DNA of 39,649 bases from a virus. The translations under genes were made by a program, and so were the position numbers. The stretch covers positions 1 to 39,649 of IMG/VR virus record IMGVR_UViG_3300020202_000052; one strand, given 5' to 3'. Under the pieces are notes generated by a model. The model made no database searches, was not told the DNA's origin, and was given only the letters and a program-made list of their open reading frames with translations. Each line of letters opens with the position of its first letter. Within the stretch, counting starts at the first letter, position 1. This document shows, one piece after another, positions 2,906 through 38,014 of the stretch.

Positions 2906-3982
2906 ATGTTGGTCTACAGAAGAAGTGGTTCAAAAGTTTATTATGTGCGTTACAAAGATAAGCACGGAAATCTTAACTGGCAAAGTTTAAAAACAAAAAA
3001 TGTTCAAGTTGCACACGAAAAAGCAAAAGAAATAATTCAAGGTTACGACAAGCCAGACCCAAATAAAATTACAATTAAATCCTGCGTTGACGAGTACCTT
3101 GTAACTTGTGAAGCTAACCACGCAGCAAAAACCTACCGCAACGATAAAAACTCCTTAAATAAATTACTTCAGTTTTGTGAACACGAAGAAATAGTTTACA
3201 TCTCCGACCTAACACTCGGCTTTTTAGAAAAATATAAAATTTGGCGTTCTCAAATGGTTTGGAAAAGAAAAGAGGATGGCAAAGAACATACTGTTAGTAA
3301 GGGAATGGTAAATAGCGATTTAAAAGTTTTTAAATCATTCATTAACCGGTTAGTAGCTGATGAGAAGTTACCCAAGAGTCCCATTAAAGACCCTGCCGGA
3401 AATAATAGACTTAAATTTTATTCAGTTACAAATAAAAAAGTTCGCTTCCTATCAACTGAAGAAATAAAAATTCTTTTAGATACTGAAAAACGCCCACGCT
3501 GGAGAGCGCTTATTGCTGTTGCTATAAATACAGGGATGAGGCCAGGTGAGCTACAACACTTGGTGTGGGATAATGTCTTGTTTGACCAAGGCTTAATTGC
3601 CATTGCAAAACAAGGCGAGTTTGACCCAAAGACTAGAAAAGTTCGCTACATACCGATGAATAAGACAGTTCGTACTATTCTATCGGGTATGAAAAAAACG
3701 GGTAATTATGTTTTCGGGATTGAAGGAGATAAGCCGTTTCTTAATAACTTCCACCTCCAATTTAGAAAAATAGCTAAAAGAGCAGGATTAAAAGGGGTTA
3801 CACCAAACACCCTGCGTCACACCTTTGCTTCTCACTTAGCGATGGCTGGTGTGCCTTTAATTACAATTAAAGACCTTATGGGGCACGAGAATATAAAGAC
3901 GACAATGATTTACGCCCACCTATGTACATCGCACACCACAGGGGCTGTAAACAAGCTTCAAGAGCTTGCTATATTAAAGTGA
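2906..3982 (+). CDS. int: Tyrosine-family site-specific integrase
   Basis: 358 aa, normal length. The N-terminal 50 residues are an arm-binding domain (KVYYVRYKDKHG), followed by a SAM-like core-binding domain (about 60-160) and the catalytic domain. Catalytic residues are R212 (TGMRPGEL), K245 (RKVRYIP), R304 (TLRH), H327 (MGHEN) and the nucleophile Y336 (MIYAHL). The usual first His of the HxxR box is Asn (N301), a tolerated but notable change. It integrates the phage at a tRNA-Thr gene, whose half copy lies 78 bp upstream. GGGGG at about 2895-2899 is a plausible ribosome site. It is convergent with the repressor gene and overlaps its end by nine bases. Confidence 0.95.
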   Translation: MLVYRRSGSKVYYVRYKDKHGNLNWQSLKTKNVQVAHEKAKEIIQGYDKPDPNKITIKSCVDEYLVTCEANHAAKTYRNDKNSLNKLLQFCEHEEIVYISDLTLGFLEKYKIWRSQMVWKRKEDGKEHTVSKGMVNSDLKVFKSFINRLVADEKLPKSPIKDPAGNNRLKFYSVTNKKVRFLSTEEIKILLDTEKRPRWRALIAVAINTGMRPGELQHLVWDNVLFDQGLIAIAKQGEFDPKTRKVRYIPMNKTVRTILSGMKKTGNYVFGIEGDKPFLNNFHLQFRKIAKRAGLKGVTPNTLRHTFASHLAMAGVPLITIKDLMGHENIKTTMIYAHLCTSHTTGAVNKLQELAILK

Positions 3983-4687
3983 AACAACTCCTAAAATATT
4001 TATCTTAGAACGATCTACGAGGAGAGGTTCGTGCGTTGGATTCTTAGACTGTGGAATAAGCATAATCTTTTTTTCATCGATCTCAACAAAGTGTCTTACA
4101 CACCATTCACCTTGATGCTCAACAACAACAATATCCCTCCACTTAGGGTCTTGGTCAACTCGTACAAGTAAGTAAGACCCCTTAACGATACCAGACTCAG
4201 ACATTGAATCATCTTTTGCGATAAGAACATAACTCTTACTGGCAAAAGGTGTTGCTAGATAAGGGATATATCCTTTGGGCTCCTGGTCTTGAAAATTACT
4301 CTGTTTGGGTGGGTTTTTAAAAAGAGGAACCTTTACAAATTCAGCTGATGCAGGAGTTCTTTTTTGTAAGTAATAATTTCTATAATAGTCTTTAGCAACA
4401 TCTTCTCTCCCGTACTTAATCTCTAGAGCGCGCATTATGAGCTCTTCTTCTTCTTTTTCTGATAACGCTAATTTCTTAGCAATAAGCTCACAGCGAGGGA
4501 TGTCTAATGGATTCTTCCGACCAGCCAAGATATCGCTAAAATACGACTCAGAAAGGCCTAAGAACTCAGCCAATTCGACATTTTTTATGTTTTTAATTTC
4601 TAGTAAGTTTCTAAGGTACGAACTAAATCTATTCATACCTAATGTATGTAACATATAGCGCATAATAACGCAATGGTCTAAAGCCAC
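3974..4687 (-). CDS. S24-type phage repressor (HTH + LexA/CI-like domain), peptidase probably inactive
   Basis: 237 aa if read from the GTG at 4687; the ATG at 4636 (MNRFSSYL) gives 220 aa and starts just before the HTH. No good ribosome site precedes either, as in leaderless cI genes. Residues about 20-75 are an XRE helix-turn-helix (NVELAEFLGLSESYFSDILAGR). Residues 140-237 are an S24 domain with the Ser nucleophile in KDDSMSESGIVKG (S161). The partner Lys, expected in a V-K-R/K-F block, is Arg in EWCVRHF (R198), and no Ala-Gly or Cys-Gly cleavage site is evident in the linker. The protein probably binds the operator at 4811-4827 but may not self-cleave in the SOS response. Confidence 0.85.
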   Translation of the reverse strand: MALDHCVIMRYMLHTLGMNRFSSYLRNLLEIKNIKNVELAEFLGLSESYFSDILAGRKNPLDIPRCELIAKKLALSEKEEEELIMRALEIKYGREDVAKDYYRNYYLQKRTPASAEFVKVPLFKNPPKQSNFQDQEPKGYIPYLATPFASKSYVLIAKDDSMSESGIVKGSYLLVRVDQDPKWRDIVVVEHQGEWCVRHFVEIDEKKIMLIPQSKNPTHEPLLVDRSKINILGVVSL

Positions 4688-4738: not shown

Positions 4739-4803
4739 TTAACAAGTTTAAGTATATATAATAATAAATCTTAAAATAAATGCGTATTTTTTCAGAAATA
4801 GTC

Positions 4804-4832
4804 TTGACAAAGTTCTCCAGGAGAACTATTAT
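4804..4832 (+). promoter_or_regulatory. Early rightward promoter with palindromic operator
   Basis: TTGACA (4804-4809), a 17-bp spacer and TATTAT (4827-4832). The perfect palindrome AGTTCTCCAGGAGAACT (4811-4827) fills the spacer and touches the -10, so a bound dimer would block RNA polymerase. Since the gene directly across is the S24-type repressor, this is the best candidate for its main operator. A direct repeat of AAGTGATT (about 4842-4861) follows downstream and may be a further site. Confidence 0.85.
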
Positions 4833-4895
4833 ATGCGAAATTAAGTGATTTAAAGTGATTACAAGAACCAACAATAAGCATCATTAAAGAGTCAA

Positions 4896-5324
4896 ATGCG
4901 ATATAAAATACACAAGATGAACCTAAATAAACAAGCTATCGTGGCTATTTTTTTGCTGAGTTTCTTCTCTACGAGAGAACTTTTTGCAGCCGTTAGTGAA
5001 AGTTTGGCAGTAAAGGCCATTATGGGAGAGGCAAGAGGAGAAGCTTATATCGGTAAGGTTGCTATAGGGGAATCCATTAGGAATCGTGGGCATTTAAAGG
5101 GTGTTTATGGACTGAATGCAAAGTTTTCTGAACCCAAATGGGTTTGGGACTCAGCTACAAGAGCTTGGCACGAATCTGCTCATACAAATTTAACTAAAAA
5201 CGCTGACCACTGGTTCAGCGAAGAAGACATGAAGAAGTTGTCGAAGAACCCACCCAGATGGTTCAAGAGATTAGAACCGACAGTGAAAATCGGAAGACAC
5301 TCTTTTTACAGGAGGAAAAAATAA
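4896..5324 (+). CDS. Exported SleB-like cell wall hydrolase (probable endolysin)
   Basis: 142 aa. N-terminal positive region and hydrophobic core (AIVAIFLLSFF) ending in ELFA-A resemble a Sec signal peptide. The rest fits the Hydrolase_2 / SleB family: IMGEARGEAYIGKVAIGESIRNR with the catalytic Glu in EARGE, then ADHWF and, at the end, VKIGRHSFYRR (the family's 'IG-H-FY' ending). It would cut peptidoglycan in the periplasm or wall without needing a holin for release. AAAGAG lies before ATG 4896; ATG 4917 is an alternative. It is the first gene behind the repressor-controlled promoter, an unusual place for a lysis enzyme. Confidence 0.82.
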   Translation: MRYKIHKMNLNKQAIVAIFLLSFFSTRELFAAVSESLAVKAIMGEARGEAYIGKVAIGESIRNRGHLKGVYGLNAKFSEPKWVWDSATRAWHESAHTNLTKNADHWFSEEDMKKLSKNPPRWFKRLEPTVKIGRHSFYRRKK

Positions 5325-5524
5325 TGCAGTTAATGAAATGCGCGGAAGTAGCGCAGTACTTGAGATGTTCAGAGCATCACGTAAGAAGATTAACGAGTCG
5401 TCAACTAATACCTGTCATAAAAACTTCTTACAAGAAAGCTTTGTACGACAAAGACCAAATAGATAAGTGGCTTCTTCGCTGCACGATTAGTGAGAGAAGA
5501 GCGCATCACTTTAAGGGAAATTAA
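5324..5524 (+). CDS. Excisionase-like helix-turn-helix protein (MerR/AlpA type)
   Basis: 66 aa. I start it at ATG 5324, eight bases after AGGAGG (5310-5315) and overlapping the hydrolase stop by one base; a longer frame from 5258 only overlaps the previous gene. The pattern MKCAEVAQYLRCSEHHVRRLTSRQLIPV..., then KALYDKDQIDKWL, is the HTH_17 winged-helix shared by AlpA regulators and excisionases: helix-turn-helix, a beta wing and a closing 'D-I-D-KWL' helix. An Xis or early-regulator role is likely given int and attP nearby. Confidence 0.75.
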   Translation: MQLMKCAEVAQYLRCSEHHVRRLTSRQLIPVIKTSYKKALYDKDQIDKWLLRCTISERRAHHFKGN

Positions 5525-5695
5525 ATGGTTATCAGAAAAGCTCAGTGCCCTTACTGCAAATCAATTTTTTCTCTACGTACTACATTTAGACAATCTTTTA
5601 AGTTTTTTCCGATGTTTGCAAGAGAAGTAGATAAGCACGTTGAGTTTTGTCACTTTCGTATAAAGGTGGGAAATCTCCTTGCCAAGTACCAATAA
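5525..5695 (+). CDS. 56-aa zinc-finger-like protein
   Basis: Begins directly after the previous stop. It has CPYC at residues 8-11 and a second cluster, HVEFCH, near residue 39-44, a plausible four-ligand zinc site (C-x2-C ... C-x-H or H-x3-C). Rich in K, R and F. Function unknown; small zinc proteins of this kind in early phage operons often bind nucleic acid or host enzymes. Confidence 0.6.
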   Translation: MVIRKAQCPYCKSIFSLRTTFRQSFKFFPMFAREVDKHVEFCHFRIKVGNLLAKYQ

Positions 5696-23002: not shown

Positions 23003-23926
23003 ATGGCTTCAACACAAGTCAATTCGTTTTTCGCTAAAGGGAATAGAGAATCCCTTACGAACCAAGTTGCAGAACTTTTCGCAGATGAGGTTCCCTTTTT
23101 CTCAATGGCGAAAAAAGAATCAGCAAATGCAGTTAAACATGAATGGCAAGCAGATAGCTTAGCAGCCGCTTCTACAACGGGTATCGTTGAAGGTGCGTCC
23201 ATCAGCTATACACAACCCGCAACCAGAACTCGCCACCAGAACTATTGCCACATCCGTCTCCGTAACTGGGATGTGACTTTCACTCAAATGGCAGTTCAAA
23301 CAGCTGGTATCTCTGATGCCGTTGCTCGTGAAGTCATGAAGGCGATGAAAGCCCTCTTAAATGACTACGACAAAATCTTCCTGAACACTGGTAACTCCAG
23401 CGCAGGTACAACGTCAGCAGCGAGAAAAGCTAAAGGTATCCAAAAAGCGATTGTTACTAACACCGCTGTTGGTACTGGTACTGGTTCATCTGCCAACATT
23501 CAGTTGACTGAAGACAACGTTAACGTTCTTCTTCGTAAAATCTGGAACCAAGGTGGCGACCCTCGTGCGCTATTCTGCGGTGGACACCAGAAGATGGTTA
23601 TCTCGAAGAAGTTCTCTGCCAAAACAGGTTACAGCTTCAACATCGAAGCCTCAGCCCGTACAGCTATCGCGAACATCAACAAGTACGAAGGTTCCTTCGG
23701 TACCGTCGATATTATTCCTGATAGACAACACATGACACGCAGAATCACCATCGTAACTCCTGATTTAATCAGAGTTGCGGTTCTTCGTGACATTGCTCAG
23801 TACAAGGGTGCCGCTACTGCCTCTTCCGTTAAAGGTTGGGTAGAAGCTGAAATGACCCTCAACTGGGGTAACGAAAAAGCTCACGCTAAACACTCCTACC
23901 TGAAATCGGGCGGAACTATAGCTTAA
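23003..23926 (+). CDS. Major capsid protein, SU10/DUF5309 type
   Basis: 307 aa with AGGAG eight bases before the ATG. The sequence pattern (LTNQVAELFADEVPFFSMAKK, VKHEWQADSLAAAS, HIRLRNWDVTFTQMAVQ, GGDPRALFCGGHQKMVIS, RVAVLRDIAQYKGAATAS) matches the SU10-like HK97-fold capsid family. More C-ending, high-expression-like codons are used than in neighbouring genes. It builds the shell. Confidence 0.88.
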   Translation: MASTQVNSFFAKGNRESLTNQVAELFADEVPFFSMAKKESANAVKHEWQADSLAAASTTGIVEGASISYTQPATRTRHQNYCHIRLRNWDVTFTQMAVQTAGISDAVAREVMKAMKALLNDYDKIFLNTGNSSAGTTSAARKAKGIQKAIVTNTAVGTGTGSSANIQLTEDNVNVLLRKIWNQGGDPRALFCGGHQKMVISKKFSAKTGYSFNIEASARTAIANINKYEGSFGTVDIIPDRQHMTRRITIVTPDLIRVAVLRDIAQYKGAATASSVKGWVEAEMTLNWGNEKAHAKHSYLKSGGTIA

Positions 23927-23976: not shown

Positions 23977-24450
23977 ATGAATAATAACAACATCCCACTT
24001 TCCCAACTCAACGACACACTAAGACTCGAAGCAATCAAAGAAACAATGAAGGGTGATAAGAAATTATCACCAATAGATTTCATTAAAGAAGTCTCTAAAA
24101 AGTTTATTGAAAAACAAATCGATTCATTTCCGTTTCTGTGTGAAGTCACAAGAATGCAAAACAAATTGAAGTGGGATGAATTGAAAGAACACGGCATTAA
24201 AGGCAAGTACACAGACTCCATCGGCTGGAGCGAATCTAGAGAATTTAAGTTTGATTACGAAATCCCACAAGAGCTCTATTTATTCATGGTGAACCTTGTC
24301 TATTACGATTTTTGGTCTAACGACAATGAAAAAATTTGGCGGAAATTTATGAAGAGAATCTGCCAAGGGGATGACGCTATGCAAGTACTTATGTGGGTAA
24401 AGATGATTTACGGTTCAAACAGCCAAAAGGAGATAGTAACTACAAGCTAA
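23977..24450 (+). CDS. Unknown protein at start of glycan cassette
   Basis: 157 aa from ATG 23977, since the longer TTG start lies in the hairpin. Helical, with many Lys/Asp/Trp (IDFIKEVSKKFIEKQIDSF, DFWSNDNEKIWRKFMKRICQ). No family recognised. It couples to the next gene by a one-base overlap. Confidence 0.6.
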   Translation: MNNNNIPLSQLNDTLRLEAIKETMKGDKKLSPIDFIKEVSKKFIEKQIDSFPFLCEVTRMQNKLKWDELKEHGIKGKYTDSIGWSESREFKFDYEIPQELYLFMVNLVYYDFWSNDNEKIWRKFMKRICQGDDAMQVLMWVKMIYGSNSQKEIVTTS

Positions 24451-24911
24451 TGGGACAGACAATCCGCAACCTCTCAACAAGAGAATTAGACACAAAGGCA
24501 ATCTTTAACAACCGTTTTGTAGTGGAAATCTGTGAGAAAGTTCACGTCCACTATAGAAACCTTCGTATTCTTATGTCGCTTGAAGACTGGATTTCGATGG
24601 CACAAGGGATGAGAGATTCGCTGCGTCGTTGGGAAGAAAGAGGAATGCCTAACCCAGAAGAAGGAGTTCATATTGAACTCTGCCGCAAAGAAGTCGCTAA
24701 AAACCCACTCCAAGACAAAGACCTCAAAATAAATCTCAATAACAACCTTTACGCAAAGCACGAAGGAAGAATATTCGCAGAAGGCGCTGACTTTAAAGAC
24801 CAAGATTACATACATTTGAAGATTCGAGATTTAAGGCTTGAACTTTCACAAAGCGAATTCAACGAACTTGCTAAGGCCGTCAAAGAGGCTTCTGAAAAAC
24901 TAGATGTCTAA
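24450..24911 (+). CDS. Unknown protein of the glycan cassette
   Basis: 153 aa from ATG 24450; a GTG at 24393 would add 19 residues inside the previous gene. Contains FNNRFVVEICEKVHVHYRNL, LEDWISMAQGMRDSLRRW, YIHLKIRDLRLELSQSEF. The 'F-N-N-R-x-V-V-E-x-x-E-K-x-H-x-H-Y-R-N-L' block looks familiar from proteins near sugar-modifying genes, but I cannot name the family. Overlaps the glycosyltransferase start. Confidence 0.6.
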   Translation: MGQTIRNLSTRELDTKAIFNNRFVVEICEKVHVHYRNLRILMSLEDWISMAQGMRDSLRRWEERGMPNPEEGVHIELCRKEVAKNPLQDKDLKINLNNNLYAKHEGRIFAEGADFKDQDYIHLKIRDLRLELSQSEFNELAKAVKEASEKLDV

Positions 24912-25590
24912 GGTTGCAGTAATAGTCCCATGTTTCAAACGTCCTGAATACACCGCTAAGTGCATTAAGTCGTTAGAGGAAGCTCAGGAATACAAAGATA
25001 CATTTTTTTATCTCGTAGATGACAACTCCCAAGACGGGACTAGCGAGATTTTAGAAAAGTCTAAATTTACTTGGAAAGAAGTTGTTAAAAACCCACAAAC
25101 CAAAGGCCTTCGCAACGTTATCATTCCGTTTTTTAAATTAGCTAAGGACTTTAAATATATAGTGAAGGTGGACAATGATTGCGTTGTTCCTAAAAATTGG
25201 CTGGCTGATGTTGTGGGCGTTTTGGATTCATTTCCTGTTGATATTGTTAGCCCTAATGTGTATCCCTCTGACGCTGCACATACCTACGGTAAATTTGAAG
25301 AAGGCCTCCCGTACCGCCCTGCGAAAATTGTTGGTGGGTTGTGGGCAATGAGGTCTTCGCTTGTTGAAGATATCTACTTTGAAGAATTCTCTATCAACGG
25401 AATTAAAGGTGCAACCCACCTATTAAATCAAATTATTTTAGAGAAAGAACCAAAAGTAGGTTGGCTTACCAACGTCACTTTTCAAGACCTAGGGCACTGG
25501 TCAGGACTCCACCCTGAACATATTAAATCCCCAGAGCACCACGAATACTCTGTAAACGTTGGTAGACAAATAGCGTGGGGTGTTGAGTGA
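24904..25590 (+). CDS. Family 2 (GT-A) glycosyltransferase
   Basis: 228 aa. VAVIVPCFKRPEYTAKCIKSL at the start, DDNSQDG (39-45) and the metal-binding VDND (D90, D92) with NWL after it define a GT-A fold using a nucleotide-sugar donor. The C-terminal part has a WAMR-like segment (GGLWAMRSSL). No membrane helix, so it is cytoplasmic. Sugar and acceptor unknown; candidates are virion proteins or a host glycan. Confidence 0.88.
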   Translation: MSKVAVIVPCFKRPEYTAKCIKSLEEAQEYKDTFFYLVDDNSQDGTSEILEKSKFTWKEVVKNPQTKGLRNVIIPFFKLAKDFKYIVKVDNDCVVPKNWLADVVGVLDSFPVDIVSPNVYPSDAAHTYGKFEEGLPYRPAKIVGGLWAMRSSLVEDIYFEEFSINGIKGATHLLNQIILEKEPKVGWLTNVTFQDLGHWSGLHPEHIKSPEHHEYSVNVGRQIAWGVE

Positions 25591-26132
25591 TATTCCGTAA
25601 TGATGATGTGAATTACAACTCAAACTTTTTTGAACTCGATGAAATGTATCGTGGGATTAAACACCTTTTTCCTAAAGCAGAAATTTGGTCTTGTATCACT
25701 ATATTCAGCCGTGAAAATAAAAAGGGTTCAGTTTATCCTGCGACTCCATTTAAATCTAAACCTTTTGAATATTTTCTGGAAGTTGATAGGGTCTGTGAAC
25801 GCTATAGCGCGCCAGAAGGGGTGAAAATTGTTTCCCACGGCCTATGGCACTTAGACCACAGTAAGATTAGCCCAGAACTTCAAGAAGCCTCGATAGTCAC
25901 TTCCTGCAATCTTCTTAACACCAGAATTTTTGTCCCACCATTTAATAAATGGAATGCAGACACAGACAGAATTTGTGACAAGCACGATATAGAACTAGTT
26001 AAGTTTGAAGACGGTTGGTTATCGCTTGAACACAACGATTTCGATAAAACACACGAACTCTGGTACTTCCACTCTTGGATGCACACTCCACAAAGTTTAT
26101 TGGAAAAGCTAAGTGTCGAACACAGCAAGTAG
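25587..26132 (+). CDS. Polysaccharide deacetylase-like (NodB/CE4) protein
   Basis: 181 aa from GTG 25587, overlapping the previous stop. It keeps the NodB metal and acid motifs: FRNDDVNY (D6, D7), the His pair in SHGLWHLDH (H84, H88), and FVPPFNKWN, the family's 'P-P-x' loop; late HSWMH may supply the last motif. It would remove N-acetyl groups from a sugar. No signal peptide, so it works inside the cell, perhaps on a precursor of the glycan made by its neighbours. Confidence 0.75.
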   Translation: MIFRNDDVNYNSNFFELDEMYRGIKHLFPKAEIWSCITIFSRENKKGSVYPATPFKSKPFEYFLEVDRVCERYSAPEGVKIVSHGLWHLDHSKISPELQEASIVTSCNLLNTRIFVPPFNKWNADTDRICDKHDIELVKFEDGWLSLEHNDFDKTHELWYFHSWMHTPQSLLEKLSVEHSK

Positions 26133-26634
26133 CTATATCTCATATCAAGAAACTTTATACACAGTCCTCGACGCTCTTAAACCGAAGAGGGTTATAGAGT
26201 ACGGGACTGGTAACTCTACACAGATTCTTGCCTTATATCCAAGCGTAGAACACTTAACTAGCATTGAACACGACCCCGTTTATTTCGAATTAATCAAAAA
26301 ACTTAATCTTCCGAATACGAACATTTTTTTAAGAGAATTAGACGCATACCCACGTGCATGGGAAGACATGAAGTACGACCTAGCTTTCGTAGACGGTAGA
26401 GAAAGAGCTAGATGCTTAGACCTTGTACGAGAAGTTTTAGTAGATAAATCAGTCGTGATTCTTCATGACGCAGAACGTGAGCAGTATAAAGACGCAGTTA
26501 ATTTGTATACCTACCGCTATTTCACTGATGATGGCCACACAGCCGTATTAACCGACTCAGTAGATATGAGCATTCTTTTACAAAGAATCCTACAGGACAA
26601 ATTTGCTAAACCTATACCAGCCAGTGCCGTTTAA
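26113..26634 (+). CDS. SAM-dependent methyltransferase (class I)
   Basis: 173 aa from GTG 26113, overlapping the previous gene by 20 bases. SAM-binding loop VIEYGTGNSTQIL, acidic residue in SIEHD and LAFVDGRERARC, HDAEREQY follow the Methyltransferase_24-like order often seen in sugar O-methyltransferases. Substrate not known; context suggests capping of a glycan. Confidence 0.78.
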   Translation: MSNTASSYISYQETLYTVLDALKPKRVIEYGTGNSTQILALYPSVEHLTSIEHDPVYFELIKKLNLPNTNIFLRELDAYPRAWEDMKYDLAFVDGRERARCLDLVREVLVDKSVVILHDAEREQYKDAVNLYTYRYFTDDGHTAVLTDSVDMSILLQRILQDKFAKPIPASAV

Positions 26635-27106
26635 AGGTTCGTGGGACACTCCATCAAGAACTGACTGTTCAACCCGTTGGTACGCCATTAAGGACCATTT
26701 GGGAGATATACAGGGAAAGACTCTTGTTGATATCGGATGTGCAAATGGCTATTTCGGTTTTAAATTCTTACAAGCAGGTGGTGAGTTTGTTAACGGTGTA
26801 GAGATTGACACTGAGATAGTAGATTTTGTTAATAAACTCGCTAAAGACAATAACATGAATTTTGAATGCACTACACAACCCACCGACAACAACTTCGATT
26901 TTTGTCTATATTTAGACCTTCACTATCACGATGGACTTAACTTCTTACGCTACATAAAGAATCACTCCAAAGTTGCCTTCATATCTCCATCGGGTGATGG
27001 CAATAAAAATTCCCCACGCTTAGAGGAAGCTCTTAAAGAGCTTTACCTTTTCGTAGAGCCGATATACACGGGTTTTGAAAACAGGACCATTTTTAAGTGC
27101 GAGTAG
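26603..27106 (+). CDS. Second SAM-dependent methyltransferase
   Basis: 167 aa from TTG 26603, preceded by AGGAC. GKTLVDIGCANGYFGFKFLQ is the SAM loop, NGVEIDTEIVDF the ribose-binding acid. Short C-terminal half with FISPSGDG. Not closely similar to the upstream methyltransferase. Probably modifies a sugar or lipid-linked glycan in the same cassette. Confidence 0.75.
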   Translation: MLNLYQPVPFKGSWDTPSRTDCSTRWYAIKDHLGDIQGKTLVDIGCANGYFGFKFLQAGGEFVNGVEIDTEIVDFVNKLAKDNNMNFECTTQPTDNNFDFCLYLDLHYHDGLNFLRYIKNHSKVAFISPSGDGNKNSPRLEEALKELYLFVEPIYTGFENRTIFKCE

Positions 27107-27651
27107 CAATCCACCAGCCTAACTTCGTTCCCCACTTCGGTTTCTTTTACAAAATGAGTCAGTGCGACATTTTCGTTCTACTCACACAAGTACAGTTTGA
27201 AAAGAACGGATATCAGAATCGGTATTTCTTACAGAAGAAACAAAAGTGGGTGACTAAGCCTGTATGTGGTGGGTTAGAGAGTATTCATCAAAAGCAGTAT
27301 ACGGATGGGAAATACTTAGCTGACTTAAACACTAACTTTATTCTATGGATAAAAGATGTTTTAGATATCCAGGCACAAATCCTTCCAGATGTTGTTTCTA
27401 ACAATCGTGGCACACAAAGACTCATCGATAACCTTAATTTCTATGGTGCCACTACATACATTACGAACCCCTCGGCAAAAGACAAGTATCTAGATGAGCA
27501 AGCGATACGCTCAGCAGGTATCGATATTGAGTACTCAGACACACAGAATGCAAATCTAAACATATTAGAAATGTTCGAAGAATTTGGAATTGAAGGAACG
27601 AAGAGACAGCTTTGGAAACCGAAAAAGGAGATTAGCAATGCAAGCAACTGA
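27097..27651 (+). CDS. WbqC-like protein
   Basis: 184 aa from GTG 27097. The N-terminus AIHQPNFVPHFGFFYKMSQC, DIFVLLTQVQFEKNGYQNR and WVTKPV follows the WbqC family ('H-Q-P-x-x-x-P-x-x-G-x-x-x-K'). WbqC proteins occur in O-antigen and glycan clusters, with an unclear enzymatic role. Presence here strengthens the case for a true sugar pathway in place of scattered enzymes. Confidence 0.85.
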   Translation: MRVAIHQPNFVPHFGFFYKMSQCDIFVLLTQVQFEKNGYQNRYFLQKKQKWVTKPVCGGLESIHQKQYTDGKYLADLNTNFILWIKDVLDIQAQILPDVVSNNRGTQRLIDNLNFYGATTYITNPSAKDKYLDEQAIRSAGIDIEYSDTQNANLNILEMFEEFGIEGTKRQLWKPKKEISNASN

Positions 27652-28069
27652 TATAAAGCAGGTTTATGCAGCAGGTACAGCATACCAATTAACAACAACA
27701 TCTGCAGCCCTTGATTTTGGCACGACAGACCCATCCGTCACATTAAATGCTCCAGGCACTTGGTTAATCTTCTCAAGAGCAGTTGTAAAATTTAACGCCG
27801 CCACATTCGCTGCAACAAAGAACGCAACAATAAAGCTTCGCAGAACTAATAACACCGCTGGAGACATTACAGGGGCTTCAACCGTTCTCCCAACAGGGGT
27901 AACAAGCACCACGACAGGACCCTTAGGAAATCTAGTAGTCCCACCCATACTGTACACAACTACAAACTCAGGCGACATTATAAGCCTATTTGGTTCCATC
28001 GAAACCGCCCCTAGCGCTGGCTCTATTGATGTTACAGAAGCAGAAATCATTGCTATAAGGATATTCTAA
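27638..28069 (+). CDS. Beta-rich putative structural protein
   Basis: 143 aa from ATG 27638, seven bases after AAAAAGGAG. Ala/Thr/Gly-rich beta sequence (VTLNAPGTWLIFSRAVVKF, TKNATIKLRRTNNTAG, GSIDVTEAEIIAIRIF) like head decoration or tail-tip proteins. The strong ribosome site, unlike the weak starts of the sugar genes around it, suggests a virion component made in quantity, possibly the one that is glycosylated. Confidence 0.6.
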   Translation: MQATDIKQVYAAGTAYQLTTTSAALDFGTTDPSVTLNAPGTWLIFSRAVVKFNAATFAATKNATIKLRRTNNTAGDITGASTVLPTGVTSTTTGPLGNLVVPPILYTTTNSGDIISLFGSIETAPSAGSIDVTEAEIIAIRIF

Positions 28070-28072
28070 ATA

Positions 28073-29074
28073 GTGAAAAACATAAGGCAATTCTTCTCAT
28101 ATATGAACGACATAAATTTTGAATATGTTGTTTTGCGTAATTGGGAGGGGTTGCCTTATGACGTTGTTGTTGGTGAACACTCTGACCTCGACCTACTTGT
28201 GTATGATTTTGAACACTTTAAAGAAATATTCCCACAAGCTAAACCAGAACATCCCTACCCACGTGTAAGAATGAAAATACCCATCGGAGATTCGTACATC
28301 TATTTGGATGTAAGGCACGTGGGGGATGATTACTACCCAGAAGATTTCGAACGTTCTATTCTTTCAACAAGAGAATACAACCAACTAGGATTCTATACAC
28401 CAGACCCACTTCACCACAGAATAGCCCTTGCCTACCACGCCATACACCACAAGAATTTTATTTCTCCTGAATATAAGAGGTGGCTTGGAGATGTTAAACC
28501 AGAAGAGCTGCTAGATGCATTAAAAGCTTCGAATGTAGGATGGATAAAGCCTAAAGACCCCACAGTAGGAGCTTATAACGGCTATTGGAAAGGCGCTACA
28601 AGTGTAGTTGATAAGACAGAAGACGGTTGGTTTAGAAAAATCCAAACAGGTTATAAGGCCTATAACCTCATAGAGAATGAATACAGAATCCTAAGTAAGC
28701 TCGAATCAGTTCATTTCCCACAAGTAAGAAAATCCGAACAAGGCATAGAGATAGAAGACTGCGGAACAGCTCTATCCATCGAAACAGCTCCTAAAGACTG
28801 GAAGCACCAGTTAGAAATTATCCTCCTCGAATTAAGTCACTTCGGCATACAGCACAGAGATATCAAGCTAGACAACCTCATGGTTAAAGACGGGATTATC
28901 AAATTAATAGATTTTGGGTGGGCGAAGTTCAAAAACGAAACTGAAGAAAAAGAACCCCCATCTTGTCTTGGTTATCCCAACAAACCTTCTTACGGATTTG
29001 ATGACGCTTACTCCATGAGAACGGTTACTAAACAACTTGAATATCAAATGGAGGAGTTAGCTTGCGTATCTTAG
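28073..29074 (+). CDS. Nucleotidyltransferase fused to a protein-kinase-like domain
   Basis: 333 aa from GTG 28073. Residues 10-150 look like a minimal nucleotidyltransferase: HSDLDLLV (D38, D40) with a further acidic strand IYLDVRH (D79), the fold's three acids. Residues about 165-325 carry kinase signatures: K in WFRKI (189), E in ENEYRIL, HRDIKLDN (261-268) and DFGWAKF (280-286), with catalytic D263, N268 and D280 all kept. The short kinase lobes resemble sugar or small-molecule kinases (or lipopolysaccharide kinases) more than regulatory kinases. It may phosphorylate and activate a sugar; this is inference. Confidence 0.75.
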   Translation: MKNIRQFFSYMNDINFEYVVLRNWEGLPYDVVVGEHSDLDLLVYDFEHFKEIFPQAKPEHPYPRVRMKIPIGDSYIYLDVRHVGDDYYPEDFERSILSTREYNQLGFYTPDPLHHRIALAYHAIHHKNFISPEYKRWLGDVKPEELLDALKASNVGWIKPKDPTVGAYNGYWKGATSVVDKTEDGWFRKIQTGYKAYNLIENEYRILSKLESVHFPQVRKSEQGIEIEDCGTALSIETAPKDWKHQLEIILLELSHFGIQHRDIKLDNLMVKDGIIKLIDFGWAKFKNETEEKEPPSCLGYPNKPSYGFDDAYSMRTVTKQLEYQMEELACVS

Positions 29075-30198
29075 CAATTGAACGTGATGAATTAGCCTGT
29101 AATTTTTACCGAATCCTGCAACCTTTGTCAGTAGTTGATGAACAAGGTTTAGCAGAAGTAGCTTTTCATAAGGAATGCAACTTAGGTGACGATGCCTCGG
29201 TAAATAAAGCTTTATGGGCTGATTTAATCGTGTTCCAGCGTCCTGCTACTGAAGCCTGGTTTTCCTTCATTAAAACTTGCCGTAAATACGGAAAATTTGT
29301 TGTCTCCGACTATGACGATGACCCATTTAATACCTCACCACTTAATCCTTACTACCAATATGTTGGAACTGAAGAAGTTGAGTGGGTGTGGGAAGACGGG
29401 ACAAGAGAAATGCTTTGGTCGGAAGACATGGTTTCTCCAACAGGTCAAAAAATTTTCAATATCGAAAGAAACATTAACCATAGAGACATGTTTAGGCTGA
29501 ACTTCAAAAAGTCGGACCTAGTGACATGTACAACGGAAGAATTAAGACAAGAATTTTTAAAAGTAAATCCAAACGTAGCTGTTCTCCCAAACTTAATAGA
29601 CTTCCGCTTTTTCCCACAAAACGTAGAGATGGTTAAGAAAGAAATAAGAATTGGATGGCAAGGTGGAGCTTCCCACTACGAAGACCTATTCATGGTCCAT
29701 AAGCACGTAATCAATATCCTTAAGAAACACAAGAACGTAAAGTTCGTGTTCTTCGGTGATATGAGATTTCAAGGGCTCTTTAAAGACGCTCCTCAGAACC
29801 AAATAGAATGGCATCCGTGGGTAAAACACAATGCATACCCATTCCAATTAGCACTTCTCAATCTCGACATCGGTTTATGCCCAGTAGTAGACAATCAGTT
29901 TAATAGAAATAAATCTGCAATTAAGTGGATGGAATATTCCACGATGAAGTTTATGACCATCGCTTCAAATATCCCACCCTACAGCAAAGTAATAACAGAT
30001 AAAGAAACAGGATTACTTGTGGGGGATGATGGATGGTTCGATGCCCTAGACCAAGCTGTTCAAGACAAGAATTTAAGAAACAAACTCGCCTTACAAGCCC
30101 ACGATGAAGTTAAAACAAATCACAACGCCCAAACCAAAGCTCACCTTTGGGTAGAAGCATACGACAAAATCCTTAAAGGAAATCTGGTGACTGCATGA
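29062..30198 (+). CDS. Family 1/4-type (GT-B) glycosyltransferase
   Basis: 378 aa from TTG 29062 with GGAGGAG upstream. The C-terminal half fits GT-B: LPNLIDFRFF, IRIGWQGGASHYEDLFMV, VKFVFFGDMRF, IGLCPVVDNQFNRNKSAIKWMEY (with the E and K positions used to hold a nucleotide sugar), and EYSTMKFMTIAS, ETGLLV. The N-domain has FVVSDYDDDPF. Similar enzymes occur in viral and bacterial glycan clusters. Soluble; acceptor unknown. Confidence 0.85.
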   Translation: MRILAIERDELACNFYRILQPLSVVDEQGLAEVAFHKECNLGDDASVNKALWADLIVFQRPATEAWFSFIKTCRKYGKFVVSDYDDDPFNTSPLNPYYQYVGTEEVEWVWEDGTREMLWSEDMVSPTGQKIFNIERNINHRDMFRLNFKKSDLVTCTTEELRQEFLKVNPNVAVLPNLIDFRFFPQNVEMVKKEIRIGWQGGASHYEDLFMVHKHVINILKKHKNVKFVFFGDMRFQGLFKDAPQNQIEWHPWVKHNAYPFQLALLNLDIGLCPVVDNQFNRNKSAIKWMEYSTMKFMTIASNIPPYSKVITDKETGLLVGDDGWFDALDQAVQDKNLRNKLALQAHDEVKTNHNAQTKAHLWVEAYDKILKGNLVTA

Positions 30199-30869
30199 GT
30201 TATACATTTAGCGACCAACAGAGCAAGTTAAGTTCGCTCCTTGGCGATTCTAATACGGGTTCTGATGACATGTTCCCGTTAGCACAAAGAAAGAAAGAGA
30301 TTAATAGGGGAGAACTGCAATTCGCTAAAGACTCTCTACTATTAAAAGAATATGCAACTGGCACAGTTGCTAGCGCTGAAATCTCTGTTCCTTCTGACTG
30401 GTTAAAAACATTTGTTCTTATAGTGAATAATCAGGTTATTACAAATGACCGTGAAATCTCTATTAAAGACTATGAGCGCTATTACAACTATTCAGGAACG
30501 CCGCCTTACTACTATTTCTGGGAGTTTTCAGGAACTCGTAAAATTAAATTTATAGGTTCGTCAACAGGTCAGACATATCTTCTCTATTACTTTAGGAAAC
30601 CCACAACAGAATTATCTTCTGACTCTGATACATCAGTATTCCCAGAAGAATACCGTGAAGCATCTGTCTACTACGCAGCGGCAGAACTCCTTCAGCAAAT
30701 CGGTAAACACGAACAGTCTAATAAATACCGTCAGATGTATTTCGAGTTTGTTCGTAAAGCTATGCTTGATGGCGAAGCCCACTACTTAGACAAACAGTAC
30801 CCCGTTCCAGATGTAAATATTATCGGCGGTGGGTCAACTACAGACGTTCAAGGAGGAGGGTACTTCTAA
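30195..30869 (+). CDS. Head-to-tail adaptor-like protein
   Basis: 224 aa. Helix-rich ends with a beta middle: GDSNTGSDDMFPLAQRKKEIN, DWLKTFVLIVNNQVI, EYREASVYYAAAELLQQIGKH. Such a layout and position before the tail hub fit adaptor or tail accessory proteins (P22 gp4 or gp6/gp7-like). It returns the operon to virion assembly right after the glycosyltransferase. Confidence 0.65.
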   Translation: MSYTFSDQQSKLSSLLGDSNTGSDDMFPLAQRKKEINRGELQFAKDSLLLKEYATGTVASAEISVPSDWLKTFVLIVNNQVITNDREISIKDYERYYNYSGTPPYYYFWEFSGTRKIKFIGSSTGQTYLLYYFRKPTTELSSDSDTSVFPEEYREASVYYAAAELLQQIGKHEQSNKYRQMYFEFVRKAMLDGEAHYLDKQYPVPDVNIIGGGSTTDVQGGGYF

Positions 30870-32444
30870 GTGGGTATTACAAATAAACCCGTCCTAGACA
30901 CTTTAAACGGTCAAGAATTAGCCCTCGAGATACTTTCTTTCTCTGGTGGTGAGAACACCGTCTCTGAAGACCAAGCTATGAAAATAAGCGAGGCCAGAGT
31001 CTTAGAAAATTGGGATGCCATTTCCATAGGAGGTATGGAGCGCTCTAAAGGCTTCAATGAAGTTGCAGACGGTGGAGCAAGTTACAGCGCAGCGCCTGAC
31101 TTACTTATTCAACATAAGGATTCTGGCGGAACAGCCGTATACGGAATTATCGCAGGCGATTTAGTTATTAAAGACGGTTCGTCAATTAACCAAGAAAATG
31201 CCGCAGCTTTTTCATCTGGTGTTTTAAGCCATGCAGTTTCAGCAGGAGACGCTTTATGGATAACAAATGCAACAGACAACCTGAAGAGAAAGACTGTAGG
31301 GAATGTGATTGCAGCCGCAACAGGTCAACCAGCGACTGCTTGTGCAAGAATTTACAACTCGAAGAATAGATTGCTTGCGGAAGGCTCCACCTCTGTACCC
31401 AAAAGAGTTTACGGCTCAAGGACTGGTACGGGAAACTGGAACAATGCCAATACGTGGTCTTTAGCTAATGACGCTTTCAGTATTGACCTTCCAGAAGACA
31501 CGTCTGGTATGGCTCCAAACTTTCCGTCAGGTAATGAAGATTTAGTTTTTACGGCAGATAAAGCTTACGCTCTATCGAACTACCCAAACGCATCCTACAG
31601 ACCCATACCTAATTCACGTGGCTGTGCCGCACCTTTATCAATAGCTCGCGGTGACGAAGGAGTTTACTTTGTTTCAAGAAGACCCACACTTGGAGTCTTC
31701 CTATTTGACGGGGTGAACTTTAAAGAGCTTTCACAATTCAATAAAGACGTCTTTGTAGACAAGATTAACTTCTCAGGAAAAATCTTCGGGTTCTACAGAG
31801 ATAGCAAATATTATTTAATATACAACGAAACAGGTTCAGGGGTTACCTATCCTAACAGAATAAGAATATTTGATGCTCGCTTCGGTAGATGGATGAGCCG
31901 TCCTATTAACTCAGCGCTTGCCGATAACATGGGCTATCCAGCACTACTTAAATATTCCTCAAACGAAATTTACATAGCTTCATCCAGAAAAGACAAGATT
32001 TATGAGTTCGAAACAACTGACAACTCGGATGAAGGTCAAGAAACCTTAGCTTCCTATAAAACTAAGACAGTAAGTTCAAGAGACTTCGCATTAGCAAGTG
32101 GTGGGCAGTTTCCAATTGATGACGTAAGGATGAAGTTAGAAAAAATTACCATCACCTATTACGGTGTTGCTGGCGCGTTGGGTATTCTTTGGTCGGCAGA
32201 TAGAGGACTTCATTCCGGTTCTAAAACCATAGATTTAACCGCTGCCGGTGACCTAATTAACACCACCTTCACAGTTAACAGCTCAAAAGTTATAACAACC
32301 CCACAAGATAAAACCAGAACGTATTCGTTCCCAAACCACGCAGTTGGTAGAAGGTTTGATTTCACATTTACCAACAACGGTACTGGGGCAAGACCAAAGA
32401 TAAAAAAAATCAAGATACACGCAATAGCGCTAGACGAATCATGA
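30870..32444 (+). CDS. Tail hub / neck stabilisation protein (beta-propeller-like)
   Basis: 524 aa from GTG 30870. Repeated beta blades (RARVLENWDAI-type start, LLAEGS, FTADKAYALSNYPN, GVYFVSRRPTLGVFLFDG, YYLIYNETG, FDARFGRWMSRPI, EIYIASSRKDKIYEFET) and a C-terminal sandwich resemble P22 gp10-type or nozzle proteins that plug the portal and hold fibres. Length is in the usual range. Confidence 0.72.
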   Translation: MGITNKPVLDTLNGQELALEILSFSGGENTVSEDQAMKISEARVLENWDAISIGGMERSKGFNEVADGGASYSAAPDLLIQHKDSGGTAVYGIIAGDLVIKDGSSINQENAAAFSSGVLSHAVSAGDALWITNATDNLKRKTVGNVIAAATGQPATACARIYNSKNRLLAEGSTSVPKRVYGSRTGTGNWNNANTWSLANDAFSIDLPEDTSGMAPNFPSGNEDLVFTADKAYALSNYPNASYRPIPNSRGCAAPLSIARGDEGVYFVSRRPTLGVFLFDGVNFKELSQFNKDVFVDKINFSGKIFGFYRDSKYYLIYNETGSGVTYPNRIRIFDARFGRWMSRPINSALADNMGYPALLKYSSNEIYIASSRKDKIYEFETTDNSDEGQETLASYKTKTVSSRDFALASGGQFPIDDVRMKLEKITITYYGVAGALGILWSADRGLHSGSKTIDLTAAGDLINTTFTVNSSKVITTPQDKTRTYSFPNHAVGRRFDFTFTNNGTGARPKIKKIKIHAIALDES

Positions 32445-33148
32445 CGCATTTAGTAGTGGGTTTTGGAGAAGTCGGTAAGGCAGTTTTTAAAGTGTTAGCA
32501 GACCATTATTCAAATGTGTCTTCTGCTGATGTAAATGGTCATCACTTAACGTTTGATGTTCTCCATATCTGCTTTCCTTACTCAGATGACTTTGAGGCAC
32601 AAGTCAGAAAGTATCAACAAGCGAATCTCACTACTAACGGTTTAACAATCATCCACTCGACAGTCCCACTTGGAACAAATAGAAAGCTCAACTCTGTTAG
32701 TTCGCCAGTACGTGGGGTTCATCCGAAGCTCGATGAAGGAATAAGAACATTCGTTAAGTACTTTGGTGGGGAAAGAGCAGAAGAGGCTTCAAAGATTTTT
32801 TCCTACATAGGAATAAAAACGAAAGTTCTTCCAAGCGCTGAAGAATGTGAGGCGGGGAAGTTGTGGGACACCACACAGTACGGCTGGATGATTATTTTAA
32901 ATAAATACATCTATGAATGGTGCAAAGAAAAGAATCTTGATTTCGAAAATGTCTACACAGATTGGAACAAAACCTACAACCAAGGCTATTCAGAATTAGG
33001 ACGCTCAGAAGTATTTAGACCCCACTTAAAACACATGGACGGGGCAATAGGTGGGCATTGTGTTATTCCGAATCTTAAGTTCGTTGATTCAAAAGTTTCA
33101 GAAATTATCAAATCCAAAAATGAGGAATTAAATGGCATATCCAAGTGA
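32441..33148 (+). CDS. Short sugar-nucleotide dehydrogenase-like protein
   Basis: 235 aa. N-terminal Rossmann loop VVGFGEVGKAV, HSTVPLGTN, then a middle domain (CEAGKLWDTTQYGWMIILNK) and GAIGGHCVIPN, the signature of UDP-glucose/GDP-mannose/ManNAc dehydrogenases. Full-length enzymes have over 400 residues with a third, UDP-binding domain that is missing here, and the catalytic Cys is in the retained GGHC. It may be a reduced enzyme acting on a sugar precursor. Another sugar gene set between tail genes. Confidence 0.75.
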   Translation: MTHLVVGFGEVGKAVFKVLADHYSNVSSADVNGHHLTFDVLHICFPYSDDFEAQVRKYQQANLTTNGLTIIHSTVPLGTNRKLNSVSSPVRGVHPKLDEGIRTFVKYFGGERAEEASKIFSYIGIKTKVLPSAEECEAGKLWDTTQYGWMIILNKYIYEWCKEKNLDFENVYTDWNKTYNQGYSELGRSEVFRPHLKHMDGAIGGHCVIPNLKFVDSKVSEIIKSKNEELNGISK

Positions 33149-33971: not shown

Positions 33972-34234
33972 TGGCTGACGGATTTCTCCCACTAACTCCA
34001 GAACAACTTCAAACACCTGAAGGTTTAAATCAATTAAACCGTATGTTACAGGTTCTCTACGATTTGATTCCAGGCGATGGAGATACCATAAGAATTTATA
34101 AAGGATATGCAACCCCAGAGAGTGCTGTAACAGCAGGTATTGGGTCTTTGTACTTAAGGCTAGATGGTGGAGCAAATACAACTCTTTACGTAAAAGAATC
34201 AGGTACTGGAGCGACGGGTTGGGTAGCCAAATAG
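33971..34234 (+). CDS. Small fibre-like protein
   Basis: 87 aa. N-terminal coiled helix (GLNQLNRMLQVLYDLI) then the fibre knob-like block PESAVTAGIGSLYLRLDGG, TTLYVKESGTGATGWVAK, a motif shared by many phage tail fibres. The stop overlaps the next gene. Confidence 0.72.
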   Translation: MADGFLPLTPEQLQTPEGLNQLNRMLQVLYDLIPGDGDTIRIYKGYATPESAVTAGIGSLYLRLDGGANTTLYVKESGTGATGWVAK

Positions 34235-34626
34235 AGACTCAAAAGGAACTTCTAACTCAAATCATGAATATGGTTGTGAAGTCTAAGGTATGCCCAGAAA
34301 CAAGTCTGCGTGAATGGGCAAAAATCATCCTGCAAGCCCACACAAAAGGCTATTTGTATGTAATGTTTGAGAAAGGGAAACCATATAGCGTTTCTTGTGC
34401 CTATAGAATACCCACATGGGATGAAAAGTTTACGAAAGAAATGCCTCACACTGAAGACGGTAACATTTTGTATGTCGCCTGGGCAGTTTCTGAATCTCCA
34501 AATAAAACTAATCTTCTAAAGATGCTCCGTGAATACAGAAAGATTTTTCCGAAAGTTAAAGAACTTATCTACTACAAACGTAATTCAGATACAGATTTAA
34601 AACGAATCAAATTGAAGGAATTCTAA
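34219..34626 (+). CDS. GNAT-fold-like small protein
   Basis: 135 aa from TTG 34219, eight bases after GGAG. Pattern KGYLYVMFEKGKPYSVSCAY, ILYVAWAVSE, LLKMLREYRKIFPKVKELIY, YKRNSDTDLKRIKL resembles the minimal acyltransferase-like fold seen next to podovirus internal proteins and in HlyC-type acyltransferases. Whether it is an enzyme is unknown. It starts the block of ejection-type genes. Confidence 0.5.
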   Translation: MGSQIETQKELLTQIMNMVVKSKVCPETSLREWAKIILQAHTKGYLYVMFEKGKPYSVSCAYRIPTWDEKFTKEMPHTEDGNILYVAWAVSESPNKTNLLKMLREYRKIFPKVKELIYYKRNSDTDLKRIKLKEF

Positions 34627-36371: not shown

Positions 36372-37621
36372 TGGCTGATAAATGGGCTCAGTATGCCGTT
36401 AAGAATGATAAATGGGACCAATATGTTGAAAAACCAACAAACCCGGTATCAACAGCTTTAAAACAAACAGGGGAAATTATATCTGAAGCAGGAAAGCGAA
36501 CGTTCCTGTCTGGCCCCACATCCTTTAATAATATTACAGGTGGAATTGGAACGGAGTTTGCTCACAATGTTAAAGGTTCTACATTGGAGAGATTAGGTGT
36601 TGCACCTTGGATTTCCGAGGCTTTGAGCACTGCAACAGACCCACAGTCAGTTCTCCTTCCGTTAACTGGCGGTACATCAAAAGTTGCTATGTCCTCACCG
36701 GGAGCAATAGAACGTCTTAAATCGATGAAGCTTAGCTCTGAGGGTCGTTCCGCAGTATCAAAACTTCTTCCAGCAGCAGATATATCTACAGACCTTAAAG
36801 CAAACAGACCATCATCTGTTCAAGTTGAAGGCTTTAACATAATCAAAAAAACTAATAATCCAGTAGATGTCCTTAATAAATTTAGTTTAGAAAAAAACAA
36901 TGTAATAAAAGAGGTTGATGCTTTAGTGGCTCAAAACAACCAGCCTGTAGATCCAAAATTCCTAGGTTCACGAGTTAGGCTTATTCTTGATAAAAAGCTC
37001 AAAAATTCATCTCCAGCTGAGAGAAGAAGAATAACAGATGCCGTCAAAACAGAGTTAACTTGGATTTCAGAGCAAGGCGAATTTGATACCGTTAAAGCTA
37101 ACGCAAGAAAGCGCTATTTATACCAAGAGACTGAGCAAATCCAAAAAAGGCAAAATCAAAATAAGCAAATTATTACTAGACCTGAAAACGACATTGTTAA
37201 AGACGCTTTTGCTCAGGCCTATAAAGAAATGATTGAAAAAACTCACCCTGATATTTCGAAACTTAATAACAGATTTGCAGGTTTAGAAAATGGTGAGGCC
37301 GCTGCAACAAGATTAGTTGAGGCAAGTCAAAAACAACAACAAAGTGGTGAGCATATCGCAACCCAGATGATGAGGCAGCCAAATAAACTAGGAGTTATAA
37401 GTACAGGAATTTCCAAGATAGAAGACTTGCTAAAGACTAGCCCAACAAAAAGAGTAACCGGAAAGATTGAAAAGTTAGCTAACAAGAGCGCTGACCTACT
37501 TATGGAATCACGAAGAAAACAAGCCCCGCGCTTACTAGATTCATTTTTGAATAAACAACAGTCTAATAAAGACTACTTTAGGGAAGTCTTAACGCTAGAG
37601 GATTTAAACAAACTAACTTAA
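36371..37621 (+). CDS. Putative internal virion protein, 416 aa
   Basis: Starts with two short repeats (KWAQYAVKNDKWDQYVEK), a form common at the N-termini of podovirus internal proteins. It continues with helical regions (SPAERRRITDAVKTEL, TEQIQKRQNQNKQ). Probably the third ejection protein. Converges with the lipoprotein gene, overlapping by nine bases. Confidence 0.65.
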   Translation: MADKWAQYAVKNDKWDQYVEKPTNPVSTALKQTGEIISEAGKRTFLSGPTSFNNITGGIGTEFAHNVKGSTLERLGVAPWISEALSTATDPQSVLLPLTGGTSKVAMSSPGAIERLKSMKLSSEGRSAVSKLLPAADISTDLKANRPSSVQVEGFNIIKKTNNPVDVLNKFSLEKNNVIKEVDALVAQNNQPVDPKFLGSRVRLILDKKLKNSSPAERRRITDAVKTELTWISEQGEFDTVKANARKRYLYQETEQIQKRQNQNKQIITRPENDIVKDAFAQAYKEMIEKTHPDISKLNNRFAGLENGEAAATRLVEASQKQQQSGEHIATQMMRQPNKLGVISTGISKIEDLLKTSPTKRVTGKIEKLANKSADLLMESRRKQAPRLLDSFLNKQQSNKDYFREVLTLEDLNKLT

Positions 37622-38014
37622 GCGACCAAAATTTTCTGCGATTATTTCTGGTTGTATTTGAAAAGTCACCCTAGAACAACAATCCGCTTCAAAAGTTCTT
37701 TGAACGTTAAATTCCTTAAATTCATGTGGGTTTAAATCATATAAAACAACTTCTTCAGTCCCTATAGGCATGTCTGCCATATCAAAATATAAAAGATTGA
37801 TACGTATTTTAAAGAACTTATGCGGTGAGCGATTTTCAAGAATTGCTTTTGACTTAATCTGGGTGGATAAAATTTGGGTCACATCATCAAAGTGTTTAGA
37901 GATGTCATGGTCCTGACCGTGAAGATAAAACTTTTTAGGTTGTGGGGGAACGGTCTTAGGTGTAGTAGCGCAACCCACAAGAGTAATACACAGAAGCAGA
38001 GTAAGCAGTTTCAT
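37613..38014 (-). CDS. Lipoprotein, probable lysogenic conversion gene
   Basis: 133 aa. Signal peptide KLLTLLLCITLVG with lipobox LVG-C (Cys at about residue 15) followed by TTPK, no Asp at +2, so outer-membrane sorting is expected in Gram-negative hosts. The mature part is beta-rich with YLHGQDHDISKHFDDV and FEADCCSRVTFQI. It is alone on the opposite strand in the late operon with its own promoter: the usual layout of a 'moron' expressed in the lysogen. Superinfection exclusion or surface change is plausible. Confidence 0.78.
   Translation of the reverse strand: MKLLTLLLCITLVGCATTPKTVPPQPKKFYLHGQDHDISKHFDDVTQILSTQIKSKAILENRSPHKFFKIRINLLYFDMADMPIGTEEVVLYDLNPHEFKEFNVQRTFEADCCSRVTFQIQPEIIAENFGRLS

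Follow-up and report, generated by a model that had tools for sequence, protein, structure and literature searches.

The viral record IMGVR_UViG_3300020202_000052 of IMG/VR was analysed over its whole length of 39,649 nucleotides (the window; 39.6 kb), and between its capsid gene and its neck genes it carries a run of sugar enzyme genes that probably forms a late-expressed, cytoplasmic locus for the glycosylation of virion proteins (we put the probability at about 0.6). This reading is drawn from the enzyme classes and their motifs, from synteny and co-inheritance with virion genes, from coupling into the operon and from the absence of membrane parts. A first-pass annotation of the window had proposed that these genes either decorate capsid or tail proteins or change the surface of the lysogen. 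The idea of a dedicated glycan cassette for virion proteins now has strong circumstantial support from a kept gene order, from the co-evolution of two core enzymes with virion proteins and from reuse of the same genomic slot in unrelated phages, and a change of the lysogen surface is disfavoured.

Composition of the locus

Relatives were gathered by sequence search with single proteins or alignments. The locus occurs, whole or in part, in at least 20 further IMG/VR records and in one GTDB contig (L059; loci and records are given here by L numbers), and the gene order was compared in 17 loci of sufficient length, the window included. This order is capsid, u1, u2, GT-A glycosyltransferase, editing genes, WbqC, a nucleotidyltransferase-kinase fusion (NT-kinase), GT-B glycosyltransferase and neck adaptor, and the six core genes (u1, u2, GT-A, WbqC, NT-kinase and GT-B) are present in every one of the 17 loci. 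In the window all the cassette genes are intact open reading frames where the first-pass annotation had placed them:

23003..23926, + strand, major capsid protein (DUF5309-like / phrog_1328, 2.8e-60), left border of the slot and candidate acceptor
23977..24450, + strand, u1, core, all-helical; 17/17 loci, adjoining the capsid gene or separated from it by a single inserted gene
24450..24911, + strand, u2, core, two-module strand-strand-helix protein; 17/17 loci
24904..25590, + strand, GT-A glycosyltransferase (GT2-like), core; PF00535 1.4e-17; 17/17 loci
25587..26132, + strand, NodB-type deacetylase, exchangeable editing gene; PF01522 0.012 (under the gathering cut-off) and motifs; 9/17 loci
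26113..26634, + strand, methyltransferase 1, editing gene; Methyltransf_24 PF13578 8.4e-6; 7/17 loci
26603..27106, + strand, methyltransferase 2 (DUF1698/CmoB-like), editing gene; PF08003 1.2e-9; 6 loci by BLAST
27097..27651, + strand, WbqC-like protein, core; PF08889 7e-23; 17/17 loci
27638..28069, + strand, small Ser/Thr-rich (25%) beta-type protein; common only to the window and L059 (57%)
28073..29074, + strand, NT-kinase, core; PF00069 Pkinase 1.7e-7 on the C-terminal half
29062..30198, + strand, GT-B glycosyltransferase, core; Pfam GT-B 3.7e-6, phrog_7162 9.3e-34; 17/17 loci
30195..30869, + strand, SU10-type neck adaptor, right border of the slot; PF24175 1.6e-13
30870..32444, + strand, hub / stabilisation-type neck protein; identity from position and conservation, 54-76% in relatives
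32441..33148, + strand, short nucleoside diphosphate (NDP)-sugar-dehydrogenase-like protein, editing gene displaced downstream of the hub; TIGR03026 4e-4 (weak), GxGxxG and GGHC motifs

The enzyme classes first read from motifs are borne out by clear family matches for GT-A, GT-B, WbqC, the two methyltransferases and the kinase half of NT-kinase; the NodB domain and the dehydrogenase are weak by profile, with their catalytic motifs visible (D-D, HxxxH and PPF in the NodB-type protein). A homologue of the dehydrogenase in L014 matches the central domain of UDPG_MGDP_dh (4e-5), and the profile PF08003 has further matches to methyltransferases adjoining u1 in other loci. An HSDLDLL motif of polymerase-beta type, with an Asp further on, lies in the N-terminal half of NT-kinase, and the catalytic motif residues of both halves are invariant among 14 homologues. 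Sequence search of the PDB returned generic kinases only for NT-kinase and nothing useful for the WbqC alignment. The cassette proteins are predicted to be cytoplasmic, as had been proposed, since none of them has a plausible transmembrane segment (the Kyte-Doolittle mean over 19 residues reaches at most 1.34). The overlaps of starts and stops that couple the genes are real, and the beta-rich gene at 27638-28069 does have a good ribosome site (AAGGAG). The description of the cassette's other ribosome sites as weak is right only in part, because GT-B has GGAGGAG.

Exchangeable genes and co-inheritance

NodB and the dehydrogenase are each found in 9/17 loci and are mutually exclusive except in the window, where NodB lies in the cassette and the short dehydrogenase after the hub. 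The dehydrogenase homologues of the 8 relatives are inside the cassette, or directly after GT-B (L029), and in 8 of the 9 loci the gene adjoins or is fused to a NeuD-like hexapeptide acetyltransferase. A PIG-L deacetylase is added to this set in L012, L014, L029 and L055, the last being a further locus that ends before WbqC. L029 also has a GDP-mannose-dehydratase-like gene, and methyltransferases too are found in or beside the slot of relatives. These neighbourhoods are not random unrelated insertions, a possibility raised at the outset, as the core order is kept in 17/17 loci.

The distances among NT-kinase proteins correlate with those of the portal (rho 0.77) and the adaptor (rho 0.74), and those of GT-B do likewise (rho 0.83 and 0.70; Mantel p about 0.001). 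Compared with portal, adaptor and hub together, the two enzymes give rho of 0.64-0.83, while virion genes among themselves give 0.51-0.77; NodB (rho about 0.2) and the dehydrogenase (about 0.0) do not track the virion genes. By this comparison NT-kinase and GT-B have co-evolved with portal and adaptor, and NodB and the dehydrogenase have been swapped. The ratio of nonsynonymous to synonymous substitution rates (dN/dS) is about 0.08-0.12 for u1, u2, GT-A and WbqC against 0.085 for the adaptor in the closest informative pair (L022/L029), figures that are rough because dS is near saturation, and selection on these four genes looks purifying, to about the same degree as on the adaptor.

Several other genes were observed in the slot of relatives. 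Between capsid and u1, L055 has a gene (4765-5526) whose product looks from its sequence like a sulfotransferase (RCGTTSLFNYL close to the N-terminus); it is perhaps another glycan-editing gene. Small proteins with apparent signal peptides are found after the capsid gene in L002 (4476-4874) and in the gap between GT-B and adaptor in L015 (11099-11680). HNH endonuclease genes are inserted in the cassettes of L005 (6014-6586), L014 (11885-12604) and L016 (14601-15047), and these may be homing elements by which editing genes are moved or shuffled. The contig L059 comes from a GTDB genome labelled Parcubacteria whose isolate name begins with 'viral-cat', and this phage contig is likely mis-binned in the Parcubacteria metagenome-assembled genome.

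The core proteins u1 and u2 and the 27638 protein

The AlphaFold model of u1 (predicted local distance difference test score, pLDDT, 86) consists of six helices, a fold for which PDB and BFVD returned no match. The u2 protein has an HxHYRNLR motif in its first module and an internal duplication (hhalign 95.8%); its model is mediocre (pLDDT 68), and the PDB gave no match by structure and nothing useful by sequence search with the alignment. Homologues of u2 are found in L056 (6001-6744), L057 (6001-6849) and L058 (6001-6384), those of L056 and L057 sitting in glycan cassettes. The three form a wider u2-like family with two HxHYRNLR motifs. A C-terminal extension of the relatives in L056 and L057 reads as ParB-like, with no Pfam match there, and in Vibrio phages a ParB_N protein (1.9e-15) directly follows a glycosyltransferase. 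L058 is an archaeal-type virus with an MCM-like helicase on its contig, and its u2 relative stands alone with no glycan context.

The protein encoded at 27638 is by its sequence a candidate virion or decoration protein and a candidate local acceptor. Similar Ser/Thr-rich beta proteins in some cassettes (27638, L059, L109 and L110) could likewise be local acceptors. As a general acceptor the 27638 protein was rejected, because it is confined to the window and L059.

The same slot in other phage lineages

Distant homologues of GT-B (24-33% identity) were found through sequence and not through position. In L083 (podovirus ctQWt234), L109, L110 and L111 they occupy the interval from capsid to connector. 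In L112 and L115 they directly follow the capsid gene, and in L114 they directly precede siphovirus-type connector genes. Elsewhere they follow tail-type genes (L113), lie away from structural genes (Arthrobacter phage Racecar) or, in Streptomyces phage KimJongPhill, stand beside the terminase in the company of genes for a methyltransferase and a UDP-glucose dehydrogenase. The slot of L109 (2627-11436) holds PseB (4e-104), a NeuB/PseI family protein (3e-65), a cytidylyltransferase, a formyltransferase, an aminotransferase and PIG-L, and that of L110 resembles this set when its sequence is read. These two loci appear to hold a near-complete nonulosonic-acid-type pathway between capsid and adaptor in another phage lineage. 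In L081 and L082 the kinase domain of NT-kinase is found again as a fusion with a methyltransferase, in the former within a glycan cluster adjoining a structural gene and in the latter beside capsid or neck genes. Sites free of sugar genes are found in HTVC106P and the Methylophilales phage Venkman, which have related capsids and in which capsid leads through small proteins to neck and tail genes.

Other genes of the window phage

The window also encodes a DnaB-like helicase, a tyrosine integrase (2906-3982) and a LexA/CI-like repressor (3974-4687, minus strand), and its head-neck block consists of TerL, portal, scaffold-like protein, capsid, SU10-type adaptor, hub and fibre, the tail fibre lying outside the slot between capsid and adaptor. 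The capsid protein has 26 relatives in IMG/VR. Family searches of the hub (Pfam and PHROG) gave no significant match, and the equivalent position carries the annotation 'phage stabilization protein'. A conserved small gene after the fibre (34219-34626) shares 31-50% with L011 and L059 and has no family match; at a similar place an acetyltransferase is annotated in ctQWt234. Near the right end, on the opposite strand, lies a lipoprotein-like gene (MKLLTLLLCITLVGC; 37613-38014, minus strand), a possible exclusion or moron gene.

Comparison with known systems

Virion glycosylation by phage glycosyltransferases was shown in the mycobacteriophages Che8, Corndog and Myrna, according to the passages of PMC12363180 and PMC12619734 that cite this work (Freeman et al., 2023). 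The window resembles the Che8 and Corndog kind in having phage-encoded cytoplasmic glycosyltransferases, and Che8 gp108 combines matches of glycosyltransferase and methyltransferase type. The Che8 proteins gp108-110 differ in falling into other PHROGs (8858, 1721 and 854) and in lying at the right end of the genome, whereas the cassette described here lies between capsid and neck; no WbqC, NT-kinase, u1 or u2 is annotated near them. The glycosyltransferase island of pelagimyophages and cyanomyophages is next to a neck gene in the structural region (PMC7029224), and so shares with the window the placing of glycosyltransferases and sugar enzymes beside the neck. The pelagimyophage island is, however, non-syntenic, about 45 kb long, includes tail fibres, belongs to T4-like myophages and was read as host O-chain modification (PMC7029224), whereas the window cassette is compact, with a syntenic core (six genes, 17/17 loci) and the tail fibre outside.

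In ctQWt234 (MW202801, Manatee Spring) the same slot reads capsid, hypothetical protein, iron-sulphur (Fe-S) enzyme, glycosyltransferase, PhyH, methyltransferase, NodB, GT-B (25% identity) and neck genes. Its enzyme set is another one, with no match to u1, u2, WbqC or NT-kinase. The Vibrio phages VH2_2019 and V-YDF132 have a run of PIG-L deacetylase, WbqC, a gene of unclear type, in part a further gene for a methyltransferase, a second WbqC and a glycosyltransferase, the methyltransferase being present in VH2_2019. Among cultured phages VH2_2019, which grows on the laboratory organism Vibrio natriegens, is the closest system that was found. The two Vibrio phages differ from the window in their genomes of about 80 kb, in the position of the run directly upstream of the terminase and not after the capsid, and in having no match to NT-kinase or GT-A. 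In bacterial flagellin glycosylation islands (Pse/Leg pathways and Maf transferases), precursor genes stand beside the gene of the decorated structural protein, and O-glycosylation takes place in the cytoplasm. The PseB- and NeuB/PseI-type genes of L109 resemble these islands, which differ in being bacterial and in using other transferases; the window cassette has no nonulosonic-acid genes. A literature search found no described multi-gene virion glycosylation locus and no function for WbqC, a result that does not prove the locus to be undescribed. What appears to be new here is a conserved, co-inherited multi-enzyme locus with editing genes in a fixed slot, together with the components u1, u2 and NT-kinase.

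Other explanations for the cassette

The main rival is that the enzymes remodel a host surface glycan (lipopolysaccharide, capsule or S-layer) during lytic infection, through a host lipid carrier and flippase, and thus block superinfection or aid release; we consider this unlikely. It is favoured by the fact that loci for surface polysaccharides typically contain members of the WbqC, NodB, PIG-L and NeuD-like families, as well as by the interpretation of the pelagimyophage islands beside neck genes as host-surface modification (PMC7029224). Yet the parts for export were not found: the GtrA flippase is absent from all 15 records tested (control genomes gave matches), the Wzx-type flippase PF01943 from all 14 records searched, and the initiating phosphoglycosyltransferase Bac_transf (PF02397) from every phage record, being found only in other contigs of the genome to which L059 was assigned. 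Membrane-bound glycosyltransferases of the Gtr type (GtrB, GtrC) were not recognised either, since GT-A and GT-B have no transmembrane segment and the match of GT-A to a GtrB-like PHROG is confined to its catalytic N-terminus. Moreover, the slot is strictly kept between capsid and neck with a virion-like co-inheritance, expression is coupled to late structural genes, so that exclusion would come late, and no integrase was found in the 14 relative records tested.

Lysogenic conversion, in which the prophage alters the surface of its lysogen, would fit the integrase and repressor of the window phage, but the cassette, or part of it where the record is a fragment, is also present in 14 relative records (five of the 14 measuring 38-44 kb) in which neither a tyrosine nor a serine integrase was found, and over all 15 records a tyrosine integrase occurs in the window only and a serine recombinase in none. 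Temperate life therefore looks recently gained or often lost. Together with the missing Gtr-type membrane and flippase parts, the coupling into the late operon and the lack of any excess of promoters or terminators between 21.9 and 34.7 kb (promoter-like sites numbered 13, compared with 23.6 in shuffled sequence), this makes conversion very improbable. Least probable of all is that the sugars modify phage DNA to give hypermodified bases. A passage of PMC12619734 cites phage glycosyltransferases as able to do so, but no homologue of the thymidylate synthase or dUMP-hydroxymethylase type (PF00303) was found in 15 records, and the cassette lies in the structural operon and not with replication genes. 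It is just as improbable as conversion that the region is a hypervariable cargo site whose morons are unrelated and share no function. Editing genes, HNH nucleases and further inserts do vary from locus to locus, and the idea is partly true for the editing genes, but it is contradicted for the core by six ordered genes in 17/17 loci, co-inheritance and low dN/dS.

The glycosylation of virion proteins has its own difficulties. It is predicted here from gene content, and no motif marking an acceptor was found. GT-A and GT-B gave no hidden Markov model (HMM) match with Che8 gp108-110, and hence the cassette glycosyltransferases have no biochemically tested relative. Genes that act on the envelope of the host can also be carried in late operons, and lipid carriers made by the host could be supplied by glycan enzymes. 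Most of the relatives are metagenome fragments, and the conserved position is partly accounted for by common descent.

A model for the locus and its meaning

If the cassette does glycosylate virion proteins, we infer the acceptor, the sugar, the order of steps, the chemistry of NT-kinase and WbqC and the roles of u1 and u2 as follows. The exchangeable enzymes would edit nucleotide sugars of the host (the sugar probably being an N-acetylated amino sugar) through deacetylation (NodB or PIG-L), oxidation (dehydrogenase), methylation and, in relatives, acetylation. WbqC may carry out an acyl or amino-acyl step on the amino sugar; the pairing of deacetylase and WbqC, seen in the Vibrio phages too, suggests that an amine is freed on the amino sugar and then re-acylated. 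GT-A would start or extend a short glycan on a structural protein encoded next door, most likely the capsid protein, with neck or fibre next, and GT-B would extend it, while NT-kinase may add or activate a phosphate- or nucleotide-linked group. The proteins u1 and u2 would be dedicated partners, perhaps holding the acceptor or the enzymes. A general acceptor must be a protein shared by all members, namely capsid, adaptor, hub or fibre.

More tentatively, the junction of capsid and connector in many environmental phages may be a dedicated glycosylation locus, where a glycan self-built from edited precursors (amino sugars here, nonulosonic-acid-type in L109) comes to coat the virion, by means of protein families not known from glycosylation systems elsewhere, namely u1, the HYRNLR protein u2 and an NT-kinase making a phosphate- or nucleotide-bearing glycan. 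If this is true, glycan-coated virions would be far commoner than the few proven mycobacteriophages, with whole precursor and editing pathways devoted to them, with consequences for the encounters of environmental phages with receptors, defences and particle-binding surfaces. The presence of sugar genes in the capsid-to-connector interval would then be a genomic signature for finding such phages, and the purpose of many phage glycosyltransferases, for which the usual guess is DNA protection or a change of host surface, would become testable.

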